Source of the DNA: a virus
Virus record (IMG/VR): IMGVR_UViG_3300021963_008220
Location: 62,001 to 126,000 of that record
Strand: one strand, 5' to 3'
Length of the DNA: 64,000 bases
Part shown: positions 6,967-63,380 of the stretch, one piece after another
How positions within the stretch are numbered: the first letter of the stretch is position 1
Layout of the letters: every line of letters starts with the position of its first letter
The notes under the pieces: generated by a model
Databases searched by the model: none
What the model saw: only the letters and a program-made list of their open reading frames with translations
What the model was told of the DNA's origin: nothing
Program-made: the position numbers and the translations under genes

Positions 6967-8382
6967 TTATTCCGCAGTATTTGACGGATACCCCATTTCT
7001 CTGTGGAGTTTTTCGAATATCTCCTGCTGTTTTGATTCTTTTAAATACTTAGAAAGATCCCTAACTGTATCGAAATCCTTTCTATCTAAGGCAGCATCTA
7101 TCAATCTCTCGATCTCCCTTTTTGAAAGTTCCGAATAATCAACCTCTTCAGGCTCCGCTGGTGCTCTTCCTGGTGCTTCCTCAGATGGTTCGTAGTCATC
7201 GTCATTATCAATACCTGCTTGTCCAAGCTCATATTTGCCAATTTCTTCTGCAATCTCATCAATGAACTCCTGTACAACAGGCTTAGCCTTAGGATCCTCA
7301 TTAAGGATCATGTACATAAGGTTAAGGAAATCCTTAGCATCCATTGCCATCATCTTACCGAAAACGTGTTCTCTTAGATTAGGAATATCGTCATATTCAG
7401 GGAATTGCGTAATAAAGTCTCTAAGATCTGCGGCAATTTCTGGACCGTATCTAAGATCTTCGATCTCATCCGCTAATGAATCTGTGTTCATGATCACCGT
7501 TTCTGCTGTTTCTTCATCATCAGGAATACCTACTGCTGCGATAAGCTCATAAATACCCTTAACTGTCTCATGAAGTAACATAGCGAAATCGGTACCTAAA
7601 GCATTAATAGTAGGACCTGTTTGTGCGAATAGATCTTCAGTTTCTTCAGGAACCTCAGTATCGTCTTCCAATTCACCTAAGATCTTTTGTGCAAGCTCTT
7701 CTGAATCCTCTTCCTTGTCTGTGTTCCATTCAACTGTTACTGATCCACTGAATCCTGATTTATCTCTTGTCCACATCTCCAACTGAACTTCCATTGGGAT
7801 TTGCCAATCAAAGAATCCTGCTATATCCGTGATTTTATTAAGGAGATCCTTGTATTCTGTTCCTTGCTCTTGACCTAAGATTCTAATTAAACCGTCTCTA
7901 ACCTCAGGTAGATTTAAACAAAGCTTAGTGTTTTTAGCTTCACCCTGAGTGATGTTGTTTGCGATCTTTCTTTTTTGAATTTCTGAAATGATATCAGCGT
8001 CCTTAAGTTCTTTAAGCTGTGGCATTTCTGGAGGTTCTGGCTGAACATTCTCCATAGATTTCTTAATCTGATCGTCCTTTGGGAACTTAATATTTAAAGT
8101 AACCTCCTCTAAGATAGATCCGTAATAAGCTCTGATTGCGTCTTCTGCAAGTTTTTCTAGTTCTTTCTCTTTTCCTGCTTGGATTTGTCTTGCTCTAGAA
8201 ACCAATGACATGAATCTAGGGATATCAGCTCCGTGTCTTCTTTGAAGTGCATCTAATCTTTCTTTGGCTCTACCTTCAACTTTTGAAAGGTAATCTCCTT
8301 CGCTTCCGCCTTCCCCAGGTATCCCTGGATTATCTCTTAAAGAAGCCTCGTCTACTAATTGTGTGAATGACTTAAGATTCAT
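6967..8382 (-). CDS. Large acidic protein with capsid-targeting-like N-terminus
   Basis: 471 aa, rich in Glu and Asp, predicted mostly helical. The N-terminus MNLKSFTQLVDEASLRD contains F-T-Q-L-V-D-E followed by Ala, the pattern shared by many class-B genes here and similar to the T4 prohead-protease site. An acidic, Pro-containing stretch lies near residue 400. Starts within the last codons of the 88-aa gene at 8372 (11-bp overlap), so the two are one operon. No enzymatic motif recognised; internal head or core protein is possible. Confidence 0.7.
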   Translation of the reverse strand: MNLKSFTQLVDEASLRDNPGIPGEGGSEGDYLSKVEGRAKERLDALQRRHGADIPRFMSLVSRARQIQAGKEKELEKLAEDAIRAYYGSILEEVTLNIKFPKDDQIKKSMENVQPEPPEMPQLKELKDADIISEIQKRKIANNITQGEAKNTKLCLNLPEVRDGLIRILGQEQGTEYKDLLNKITDIAGFFDWQIPMEVQLEMWTRDKSGFSGSVTVEWNTDKEEDSEELAQKILGELEDDTEVPEETEDLFAQTGPTINALGTDFAMLLHETVKGIYELIAAVGIPDDEETAETVIMNTDSLADEIEDLRYGPEIAADLRDFITQFPEYDDIPNLREHVFGKMMAMDAKDFLNLMYMILNEDPKAKPVVQEFIDEIAEEIGKYELGQAGIDNDDDYEPSEEAPGRAPAEPEEVDYSELSKREIERLIDAALDRKDFDTVRDLSKYLKESKQQEIFEKLHREMGYPSNTAE

Positions 8383-8638
8383 ATCTGTCTTTTAATTTTG
8401 AAATGTCGAATTTTATAGGTGCTTTAGACTTCTTAAGCTCTCTCATAAATCTATCAACAACGTTAGCTGCTTTAGCTTTAGGAGCTGGATCAACAGCTGG
8501 TTTGTCCCTTCTGATTGGGCTTGGCCTTGAAGGAGTAGGTCTAGTTCCAGGATCAACCCCAGGCTTGGTAGTTGGCTGGCTAGGAGCAGTTTGGGGCTTA
8601 GCTGCCAAAAACTCGTCTATTTTGGTGAAAACTTTCAT
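8372..8638 (-). CDS. Short Pro-rich basic protein
   Basis: 88 aa. N-terminus MKVFTKIDEFLAAKPQ resembles the F-x-x-(I/F)-x-E-F leader of neighbouring proteins. Residues about 15-55 are Pro/Lys/Arg-rich and probably disordered, the remainder a basic helix (VDRFMRELKKSKAPIKFD). First gene of a minus-strand operon with the 471-aa protein, 19 nt from its GATATATA element. Function unknown; packaging into the head is possible. Confidence 0.6.
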   Translation of the reverse strand: MKVFTKIDEFLAAKPQTAPSQPTTKPGVDPGTRPTPSRPSPIRRDKPAVDPAPKAKAANVVDRFMRELKKSKAPIKFDISKLKDRYES

Positions 8639-8657
8639 AGTTGGTTTTTAATTTGAA

Positions 8658-8665
8658 TATATATC
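8658..8665 (-). promoter_or_regulatory. Class-B late-type promoter GATATATA (leftward of a divergent pair)
   Basis: GATATATA on the minus strand, 19 nt before the ATG at 8638. Only 3 nt from the rightward element at 8669. Confidence 0.6.
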
Positions 8666-8668
8666 ATC

Positions 8669-8676
8669 GATATAAA
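8669..8676 (+). promoter_or_regulatory. Class-B-like element GATATAAA (rightward of a divergent pair)
   Basis: GATATAAA, one base from GATATATA and close to the T4 late TATAAATA, 10 nt before the ATG at 8687. Confidence 0.45.
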
Positions 8677-8686
8677 TTTATACCTT

Positions 8687-61581: not shown

Positions 61582-61601
61582 GGGATAACCACTAAAAATA
61601 A

Positions 61602-61631
61602 AAAAAGGCCTGATCCCTCAGGCCTTTTTTT
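61602..61631. terminator. Bidirectional terminator
   Basis: AAAAGGCCTGA ... TCAGGCCTTTT with A-run and T-run on either side; serves the HTH gene and the convergent minus gene. Confidence 0.85.
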
Positions 61632-61647
61632 ATATGATCAAATTGTA

Positions 61648-62271
61648 TTATTGAAATTTGGTTGCTAGGTTAACTAGATTCTGAAAGTATCCCTTCCACT
61701 GAGGATCTAAGGCAACTAATTCTTGCATAGTAAATTTCTCAGGATTTCCTTTTAGATCAAGATCTTTACCGATTCTTTTATGAACGTTAAGGTAGCAATA
61801 ATATCCAGATAGTGCCGGTGTAATAGTTTTCTTTGGCCCATTAACTTCGGCATTAAAATCCATATCAGCAAATGACTTATCCTTGGTAACATATCCAGCT
61901 ATGAAAGCAGTTGGGAAATATCCAGTTTCTAATTGGGATTCTTCTTTTCTAACCGCGTTATTCCAAACACCTGCTCCTTTAGCCATACTCATGATCGAAA
62001 AGCAGCAATCAGCAAATCCCTCAAATTTAAAAGTTGATTTAGGAACCATACCGTAGTTAGGAACCTTCAAAGATTTACCAGCAAAGCTGGCTGCGAATTG
62101 TTTACAAGCTGCAAAATACTCAGAGTTCTTATCTCTATCGCTAGCTTCTTCGCCTTTAACCTTGGCTAAATAATCCTCAACCTCTACGCCTTTAGTTGCT
62201 TCGGGAGACTCTAGAGTCTCTGCGTTTGCGGCCTCGAAAATGTAGGATTCGAATAATTTAATACGTTTCAT
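61648..62271 (-). CDS. Unknown protein with capsid-targeting-like N-terminus
   Basis: 207 aa from the ATG at 62271. MKRIKLFESYIFEAANAETL: F-E-S-Y-I-F-E followed by Ala, nearly identical in its first seven residues to the CHAP-domain protein leader. Body is alpha/beta with Cys (CCFSIMSMAKGAGVWNNAVR), possibly a hydrolase fold, but not recognised. GATATATA 18 nt upstream. Confidence 0.7.
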   Translation of the reverse strand: MKRIKLFESYIFEAANAETLESPEATKGVEVEDYLAKVKGEEASDRDKNSEYFAACKQFAASFAGKSLKVPNYGMVPKSTFKFEGFADCCFSIMSMAKGAGVWNNAVRKEESQLETGYFPTAFIAGYVTKDKSFADMDFNAEVNGPKKTITPALSGYYCYLNVHKRIGKDLDLKGNPEKFTMQELVALDPQWKGYFQNLVNLATKFQ

Positions 62272-62289
62272 TTTAATATGTTTTTTGTT

Positions 62290-62297
62290 TATATATC
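62290..62297 (-). promoter_or_regulatory. Class-B late-type promoter GATATATA
   Basis: GATATATA on the minus strand immediately after the stop of the 62298 gene, 18 nt before the ATG at 62271. Confidence 0.6.
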
Positions 62298-63380
62298 TTA
62301 GTTGAACCATCCACCTTGTAGACCCCTAGCCAGCTTGGAGAGATCTCTAATTCCAGTTCTTTTCAGTACGCCCTCTTTAGTATCAGGGTAAGCATCAAGT
62401 ATGGTTATTTTAAGTGGATTGCTTTTAAAGTATGAATCAAGGATCTCGTTGCTCAATATTGTTGTGACCAAAGACCTCGCTTTATCATCATACCCCGGCT
62501 TAGCATCGTGATTGGGTAATATGTTATATCCTCCGCCTACTTTGTAATATGTTTTGACACTACCTAATTCCAATACTTTAAGACATGTCTCAACATCAAA
62601 AGGTTTAATGTCAAAAAATCTTGTCATTAAATATTCAGCGCCGAAAGATAAATTCAGATCCTTTAAACTTTCCAATTCTGCGGTGCCTATATTAATCCCA
62701 CCTTTAATACCTGCGGGGAATCCTTTTGTTGACTTTATACCTCCCCACACACTAATTTTTTTAACACTCGAAGGTGCAAAATCCTCTATGGAATAAATAT
62801 CCCTCCCTATCACATCAATGCTAAATTCTCCCTTTATTTTACCAAACTTGAATCCGATAGGATTATTGTCATTGTTGTAAATGTCTAGTTTAACCGCACC
62901 TTCGACGTCAACTGAATTTGTATTGGGATTCCATTTCCAAGGGGCTTTAGTTGATTTGTTTATTAGGAGTATATCTTCTTTTGTCAAAGTTCCAGTTGCT
63001 TCTGGATTCATCCTCTTCATTTCCTTTGACCATCTATCCTTTAAATAATTAAAAAGATCCTCAAGGGTAAATGCGGTCTTATATTGCTTAATAAATCCAG
63101 AGCTTACACCCTTGTCCCTGATGTAACCCGACGATTGTAAAACAACTCCGCTTGGATACATGTATGGAACTTCTCTATTAACCACCATGATGGTACCATT
63201 TTTAGCCTGGATAGGTGTGGTAACGTCTTCGAATCCCATTTCCTCGAGTTCTTTCCATAAATCCATCTCTTTCCAGTTTGTAGGCCATTTTGGATTTCCC
63301 TCCGCTTTAAATTCTTCAGACAGAAGAATTCTCCTGTCAGAGGAATTTTGATATAGATCGTACTCAAGTATTCTTCTCAT
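62298..63380 (-). CDS. Unknown protein, weak capsid-targeting-like N-terminus
   Basis: 360 aa, MRRILEYDLYQNSSDRRILL: E-Y-D-L-Y fits the first part of the leader. Leucine-rich-repeat-like spacing in the middle (SIEDFAPSSVKKISVWGGIK) and beta strands, no domain recognised. Start codon overlaps the end of the oxidoreductase gene by 1 nt. Confidence 0.65.
   Translation of the reverse strand: MRRILEYDLYQNSSDRRILLSEEFKAEGNPKWPTNWKEMDLWKELEEMGFEDVTTPIQAKNGTIMVVNREVPYMYPSGVVLQSSGYIRDKGVSSGFIKQYKTAFTLEDLFNYLKDRWSKEMKRMNPEATGTLTKEDILLINKSTKAPWKWNPNTNSVDVEGAVKLDIYNNDNNPIGFKFGKIKGEFSIDVIGRDIYSIEDFAPSSVKKISVWGGIKSTKGFPAGIKGGINIGTAELESLKDLNLSFGAEYLMTRFFDIKPFDVETCLKVLELGSVKTYYKVGGGYNILPNHDAKPGYDDKARSLVTTILSNEILDSYFKSNPLKITILDAYPDTKEGVLKRTGIRDLSKLARGLQGGWFN

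Follow-up and report, generated by a model that had tools for sequence, protein, structure and literature searches.

The internal proteins IPI, IPII and IPIII of phage T4 carry an N-terminal propeptide of the form aromatic-x-x-aromatic-[LIV]xE/A, in which the slash marks the cut. In this T4 sequence, YQEFIAE, residues 4 and 7 (numbered as in IPIII) act in targeting and residues 8 and 10 direct processing; most fragments of the T4 core leave the head (PMC9026906). For phiKZ and SPN3US, two reports describe many head proteins that a prohead protease trims and that are ejected (PMC7411985, PMC10052503), and cleavage by the gp245 protease falls after Glu (PMC9026906). In phage P1, the first 30 residues of DarB are enough to direct a reporter to the capsid (PMC9024508). 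Literature searches on jumbo and huge phages turned up no mention of this leader or of the expansion described below; as far as was found, the leader is a known kind of signal on a scale without precedent in that literature.

The window analysed here is a stretch of 64,000 nt from a virus record of 134 kb (G000). A first-pass annotation had quoted 13 proteins with T4-type leaders in it, and all 13 N-termini were found at the starts given (Table 1). Two of these starts, 51394(-) and 62271(-), need an internal ATG (not 51397 and 62310). The aromatic-x-x-aromatic pattern is strict in 9 of the 13, Ile or Leu taking one side in 8382(-), 12942, 46310 and 51874. In the cases listed as weaker at 30233, 32607, 45979(-) and 63380(-), the aromatic pair was present and a clear LxE[ASG] was not. 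Leaders extend well past the coordinates first given, on both sides, and the phenomenon is larger than first described.

Table 1. Leader-bearing genes in the window; a slash marks the predicted cut position after Glu
Gene	Strand	Protein	Leader position	Leader	Domain match
5677..6927	-	OmpA-domain protein, weaker leader		VFENFGDFVKFVYGDAIYE/A	PF00691, E 3.6e-7
6967..8382	-	leader protein, unknown	8347-8382	MNLKSFTQLVDE/A	
8687..10231	+	leader protein	8687-8737	MMKYSFPTFSEKQALME/N	
10228..11694	+	leader protein, paralog of 8687	10228-10284	MRIVLESFRVWLDIQRIDE/N	
11696..12940	+	leader protein, unknown function	11696-11734	MEKVSKYDEFIGE/A	
12942..13937	+	zinc-ribbon-like protein	12942-12980	MKELKPISNFLSE/R (imperfect)	sub-threshold Pfam
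30233..30874	+	aromatic-pair leader, no clear cut site		MQNLKLYEEFSHPKEE	
31810..32607	+	leader protein	31810-31851	MQNHLLKYKNWLAE/S	
32607..32984	+	aromatic-pair leader, no clear cut site		MRNIKLYELW	
44119..44928	-	CHAP-domain cell-wall hydrolase	44890-44928	MKRIKLFEDFIKE/A	PF05257, E 5.9e-10, residues 63-156
44937..45506	-	leader protein	45459-45506	MGSVTSFNNFRSRLNE/E	
45512..45979	-	aromatic-pair leader, no clear cut site		MEHLLEFNLF	
46310..46744	+	leader protein, Leu as second aromatic	46310-46345	MNHILEYEMLTE/A	
50819..51394	-	leader protein, compact type	51362-51394	MKNLQTFALFE/S	
51874..52251	+	leader protein, Leu as second aromatic	51874-51909	MRHLKEFGKLNE/G	
53282..53962	+	leader + domain	53282-53323	MNVLNYNQFSNLSE/S	phrog_5162, residues 18-225
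60674..61072	-	leader + domain directly after	61034-61072	MIHNWNEWNSLNE/A	phrog_14518 and phrog_23027, from residue 15
61648..62271	-	leader protein, start at internal ATG	62233-62271	MKRIKLFESYIFE/A	
62298..63380	-	LRR-family relative, weaker leader		MRRILEYDLYQNSS...LLSE	

Pfam gave no match for most of the leader-bearing bodies in the window. Where bodies could be assigned in the genomes studied, they include ferritin, adenylate kinase, RimK, CHAP, LRR, PPK2 and DeoC; the domains are complete and the leader ends just ahead of them. The domain of the 53282 protein has a leaderless homolog in coliphage 121Q (E 3.6e-15). An AF2 model of the 8687 protein has pLDDT<50 over residues 1-15 and a confident fold from about residue 20; the AlphaFold model of this family is of low confidence (pTM 0.41) and serves as a basis only for the disordered leader, and a fold search with it gave no match at E<=0.001.

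The leader motif is retained in homologs of several of these proteins. It is kept for the 11696 protein in G002 and G003, and the homolog in G004 reads MERILNYKMFESEA. The LR756502 homolog of the 8687 protein carries the same motif at 26% identity, that of 8382(-) begins MKNFSKFLEE, and the orthologs of the 12942 protein read MKQLKPITEFIAER. In the orthologs of 45506(-), MRSITPFDNFKATINEE and MKSIKSFKNFISDVNEN, the key residues are kept and most other residues are changed. In one head-module protein the aromatic pair and [LIVFM]xE were found in 41 of 41 orthologs, and in 38 of these the Glu is 10-12 residues away from the domain motif.

The enrichment test suggested with the original observation was run, and the motif is strongly commoner at N-termini than in internal windows and shuffles. 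A permissive form matched about 7% of T4 proteins, and a positional scan was adopted for this reason. In the window, 12 of 100 called genes have an aromatic at both residue 7 and residue 10, where chance would give 1.1 (p 1.4e-9); in the whole record the figures are 26 of 201 proteins against 2.2 (p 8e-20). There, [LIVFM]xE[ASGN] follows the pair in 14 of 37 leaders, compared with 9% after internal pairs (p 2.4e-6), and the other 23 pair-bearing N-termini have no canonical site. The [LIV]xE cut site shows an enrichment of some 4-7 fold behind the pair and is missing in a good share of leaders. Its commonest offset is +4 in LR756500 and LR756501, the same as in T4.

A peak of aromatic pairs at residues 7 and 10 was observed in the record, in its 348 kb relative G002, and in LR756500 and LR756502; LR756501 has peaks at both 5/8 and 7/10. 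The three LR genomes are of huge phages (462-735 kb), and two were scanned in part. The positional scan gave no peak in PTm1, PAU, MaF61 or 121Q, and none in the one stretch of Lak-A2 scanned (200 kb, with TAG as Gln). HTVC008M, P-SSM2 and KVP40, each scanned in part, have few leaders only, and no cultured relative rich in leaders was found among PTm1, PAU and MaF61. The scan of T4 gave a small peak at residues 4 and 7, the register of its own tag, and the T4 leaders were re-found.

A gp21-like protease, which the first-pass annotation had proposed to look for elsewhere in the genome, is encoded by the close relative G002: an S77 protease that scores above the Pfam cut-off. It matches phrog_207 (head maturation protease) and conserves the catalytic H and S motifs (T4 H85/S140). 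The S77 match in LR756500 is also over the cut-off; those in LR756501 and LR756502 are below it but lie upstream of the capsid gene. The S77 search of the 134 kb record itself was negative, as explained by the lack of the head module in this fragment. In G002, protease and scaffold form a fusion protein, whose scaffold part holds 13 copies of YxxY[LIV]AE at 14-residue spacing. A scaffold repeat of this period occurs in 73 of 80 loci, and of the four leader-rich lineages examined, three have the YxxY[LIV]AE repeat; LR756500 is rich in leaders, yet its scaffold repeats are degenerate. The structure model of the scaffold is of low confidence (pTM 0.27) and gives only a long helix across the repeats. 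From its sequence, the G002 capsid protein has YCHYHSLNE/SAG at the expected end of its propeptide, before the mature region, and the capsid-protein N-terminus YCHYHSLNESAG is identical in all variants listed from the loci above.

The leaders are like those of IPI, IPII and IPIII, with identical spacing (0/+3/+4/+6), and the leader phages share with T4 a signal on unrelated proteins, an S77 protease (gp21 in T4) and a corresponding capsid-protein site. T4 has a handful of leaders with the pair at 4/7, whereas here the share of proteins that match the motif reaches 5-10%, with the pair at 7/10 (or 5/8) and a linker of variable length; many of the carriers are enzymes, and the protease forms a fusion with a scaffold that bears the motif in tandem. 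The large set of trimmed and ejected head proteins of phiKZ and SPN3US is, by description, similar to the system proposed here; they differ in that the lineage here is T4-type, as judged from capsid protein and S77 protease. The N-terminal capsid signal of DarB is likewise comparable by description, and P1, unlike the phages here, appears to be without a separate scaffold.

It could be argued that there is no peptide signal and that the pattern stems from nucleotide or translation-start effects or from descent of one gene. A-rich codons are frequent at coding starts, and some leader genes are paralogs (the LRR group; 8687 and 10228). However, Phe and Tyr codons interchange freely within leaders; the leader codons are free to vary, and therefore selection acts on the peptide. 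The 13 bodies, called otherwise unrelated at the outset, indeed have no mutual BLAST similarity after residue 25 (E<=0.01), and 87 leader proteins are alignable solely over their first 13 residues. Among orthologs, key leader residues are conserved at 96% against 65% for the rest of the leader (body controls: aromatics 89%, Glu 73%). Hence, this explanation is largely refuted by the codon, body, alignment and ortholog results, and its chance of being right is very slight. It is improbable, though less so, that the leader sorts proteins elsewhere in the infected cell (replication compartment, membrane or tail) and resembles the scaffold and capsid site through convergence. Adenylate kinase, PPK2 and DeoC could serve the phage in the cytoplasm of the infected cell and part of the leaders have no cut site, but the leader residues match both the end of the capsid-protein propeptide and the scaffold repeat, and the spacing equals that of T4. 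Moreover, leader genes adjoin the capsid gene, whereas leaders occur on 0 of 72 genes in two scored tail and packaging stretches; the densest stretch has them on 20 of its 135 genes.

A rather unlikely alternative, to be taken more seriously than the previous one, is that the leader marks core proteins for head building that are mostly destroyed or expelled at maturation and are not cargo for the next host. It agrees with the explanation preferred here on targeting and cutting, and differs on fate. The motif is present in 4 of 11 capsid-gene neighbours, of which three look genuine and read like core proteins (the fourth, a P-loop protein, is probably a false match), and the exit of T4 core fragments from the head (PMC9026906) is in line with it. 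Against it, many bodies are folded enzymes (RimK, adenylate kinase, ferritin, CHAP, PPK2), and the leader stops just before the domain, as would be predicted for cargo.

The preferred explanation, which upholds the T4-type capsid-targeting reading of the first-pass annotation, is that the leaders serve as capsid-targeting propeptides in the manner of the T4 internal proteins. It is supported by the enrichment, the two-part signal with T4-matched spacing, conservation, the protease, the scaffold repeats, the capsid site and the variety of domains. The aromatic pair, usually at residues 7 and 10, would dock a protein into the prohead core; this core would consist of the protease-scaffold fusion, which in three of four lineages presents the same YxxY[LIV]AE every 14 residues. 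At maturation, the gp21-type protease would process leader, scaffold and capsid propeptide alike, cutting each behind the Glu of its [LIVFM]xE, and the cargo freed within the head would then be ejected along with the DNA. This account as a whole is considered likely. Adenylate kinase and other metabolic enzymes are unusual head cargo and count against it, as do the record without a protease, the noncanonical leaders and the degenerate repeats of LR756500.

Since a tag resembling the head-loading one of T4 is present on many unrelated proteins, these uncultivated jumbo phages probably ship a large kit of ready-made proteins with their DNA. Scaffold mimicry may be a general means of loading, a proposal for and against which the case is evenly balanced: a gene gaining one N-terminal scaffold-repeat unit would have its product built into the core, cut free and delivered, and as much as about one-tenth of the phage's proteins (nucleotide kinases, RimK, ferritin, polyphosphate kinase, wall hydrolases) would reach the host as protein before the expression of any phage gene. 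The cut site predicts each mature N-terminus, for example AQIDLTDPGQAGDVF... for the CHAP protein and SKGETTK for RimK, and metaproteomics could check these predictions. The leader would offer a simple sequence rule for predicting, within the mostly unannotated proteomes of uncultivated huge phages, the proteins that enter the host as infection begins, and it suggests that the enzymes so delivered may run to dozens per virion type.

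All 13 N-termini of the window that the first-pass annotation had read as T4-type capsid-targeting leaders (an aromatic pair three residues apart, then the presumed cut site (L/I/V/F)xE) were confirmed in the sequence. The aromatic pair is strict in nine of them and has Ile or Leu on one side in four; the proteins are indeed otherwise unrelated, in that, leader aside, they had no mutual similarity at BLAST E<=0.01. Proteins were scanned by recording, for each position i, the frequency of aromatics at both i and i+3. In G000, the 134,030-base uncultivated virus record of which the window is bases 62001-126000, this gave a single sharp peak at residues 7/10 (26/201 proteins vs 2.2 expected, p 8e-20), so that the proposed N-terminal enrichment was borne out; the window alone gave 12/100 vs 1.1 expected. 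The 7/10 peak was also present in G001 (20/198), in the relative G002 (348,582 bases; 36/427) and in the huge-phage records LR756500 (43/629) and LR756502 (23/272; 200 kb scanned), and in the first 400 kb of the 735-kb LR756501 residues 5/8 peaked (47/512), as did 7/10 (24 proteins). In T4 a small peak falls on residues 4/7 (9/251), the site of its internal-protein leaders; the parts read of HTVC008M, P-SSM2 and KVP40 hold a few leaders of this kind, and the scan found no N-terminal peak in PTm1, 121Q, PAU, MaF61 or 200 kb of Lak-A2. In the leader-rich genomes, [LIVFM]xE[ASGN] is ~4-7 times commoner after the leader pair than after internal aromatic pairs (p 2.4e-6 to 1.6e-18). When pair and cut site were both required, the counts were 20/201 in G000, 39/427 in G002, 30/629 in LR756500, 50/512 in LR756501 and 26/272 in LR756502, vs 8/251 in T4, 1/293 in PTm1 and 3/567 in 121Q; absolute counts are approximate because genes were called by a simple script, and upstream start codons mask several leaders in these calls.

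Judged from its pattern of substitution, the leader is a peptide signal. Phe and Tyr codons exchange freely at both pair positions. In orthologs of G000 proteins at >=45% identity, the two aromatics and Glu were kept in 96%, compared with 65% for the rest of the leader (Fisher p 1.6e-13); beyond the leader, in the protein bodies, 89% of aromatics remained aromatic and 73% of Glu remained Glu. The test is conditional, since pairs were selected for having the motif in G000. RimK orthologs retain the leader down to 49% identity. The best example, a head-module protein with 41 distinct but related and hence not independent versions in 80 related loci, kept the pair and [LIVFM]xE in 41/41, vs 1.4% of internal windows. 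Its Glu lies 10-12 residues ahead of an LNPxFW motif in 38/41 versions, whereas the pair-to-Glu distance varies between 4 and 13 residues. The position of the cut site thus follows the domain and that of the pair follows the N-terminus, in keeping with two separable functions.

The claim that the leader stands on different domains, a wall hydrolase included, was upheld: it precedes CHAP and OmpA domains inside the window, ferritin, adenylate kinase and RimK domains outside it, and LRR, PPK2, methyltransferase, DeoC, GDPD, TPM and radical-SAM domains in relatives. The window protein at 53282 has a coliphage 121Q relative without the leader, and in that at 60674 the domain starts at residue 15, directly after the leader. 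In G002, the motif occurs in 20/135 genes of the densest stretch, in 0/72 genes of two scored stretches of tail/packaging genes, at 246-290 and 300.5-348.6 kb, and, with the capsid gene itself left out of scoring, in 4/11 genes beside that gene, one of which (294959, a P-loop protein) is probably a false match.

Coordinates of leader-bearing genes outside the window and of other features within it
Location	Feature	Remark
L001:15243-15869 and L002:7968-9425	adenylate kinase and RimK-type ATP-grasp enzyme, each with a leader	both outside window
G002 104203-112960 and G000 130042-132666	LRR paralog family	most with compact YxxFE[SA] leader; repeatedly duplicated
window 280-1605 (-)	441-residue low-complexity Ala/Ser/Glu-rich protein	heptad-like EAAQRELDRQA repeats; no match in Pfam
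window 39179-41059 (+)	SPFH/Band 7 (flotillin-like) phage protein	626 residues
window 49714-50822 (+)	ClpP-like protease gene	adjoins SmpB
window 56223-56293 (+)	tRNA gene (Rfam, 43.2 bits)	unreported by ARAGORN; overlying ORF 56118-56318 therefore likely spurious
window 58569-59105 (+)	ECF-type sigma factor	Sigma70_r2 and r4_2
window 59224-60660 (-)	lipoprotein-like tyrosinase	PF00264, E 2.2e-28; unusual for phage

The gp21-like protease sought elsewhere in the genome was found in a relative and not in G000, which is a fragment that lacks head genes. The relative, G002, matches 55% of G000 in blastn, at 81% nucleotide identity, and encodes an S77 (gp21-type) protease, above the Pfam cut-off and a head maturation protease in PHROGs; the His and Ser motifs of T4 H85 and S140 are kept in the proteases of five of these phages. 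The G002 protease occupies the N-terminal portion of a 654-residue protein, in the second half of which YSEYLAENLDKxI is repeated. In 73/80 loci there are 8-17 copies, mostly 13-14, at 14-residue spacing, with Tyr at 1 and 4 in almost all copies and Glu at 7 fixed by the search definition. The same kind of repeat occurs in LR756501 and LR756502 and a degenerate version in LR756500; the same search found none in T4, PTm1, 121Q, PAU, MaF61 or the Lak stretch read. In G002 the adjoining capsid protein starts MKLINEQEIYETWSPLIES...YCHYHSLNE/SAGAY (slash, presumed cleavage), and its stretch YCHYHSLNESAG is invariant in every distinct version among those listed.

The principle is already known from T4, with a counterpart in P1. 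Packaging of T4 IPIII requires only the first ten residues; targeting depends on residues 4 and 7, processing on 8 and 10 (PMC9026906). In MKTYQEFIAE, common to IPI and IPII, these are the aromatic pair, a hydrophobic residue and Glu, at offsets 0, 3, 4 and 6, and LR756500 leaders of the MKYIKEYEEFLNES type have equal offsets. No report of an expansion of such leaders was found in the open-access papers searched. Bacteroidota jumbo phages bearing DnaK/DnaJ, the moraphages, may be kin to these phages; the passages found of the paper describing them do not mention such leaders.

The main weak points of the mechanism that we propose are the lack of a clear cut site in some leaders, the degeneracy of the LR756500 repeat and metabolic enzymes as odd cargo. 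The leader would be a capsid-targeting propeptide, joining the scaffold by mimicking one repeat unit and being cut by the same S77 protease as the scaffold; we infer that leader proteins dock, are cut and packaged, and are ejected.
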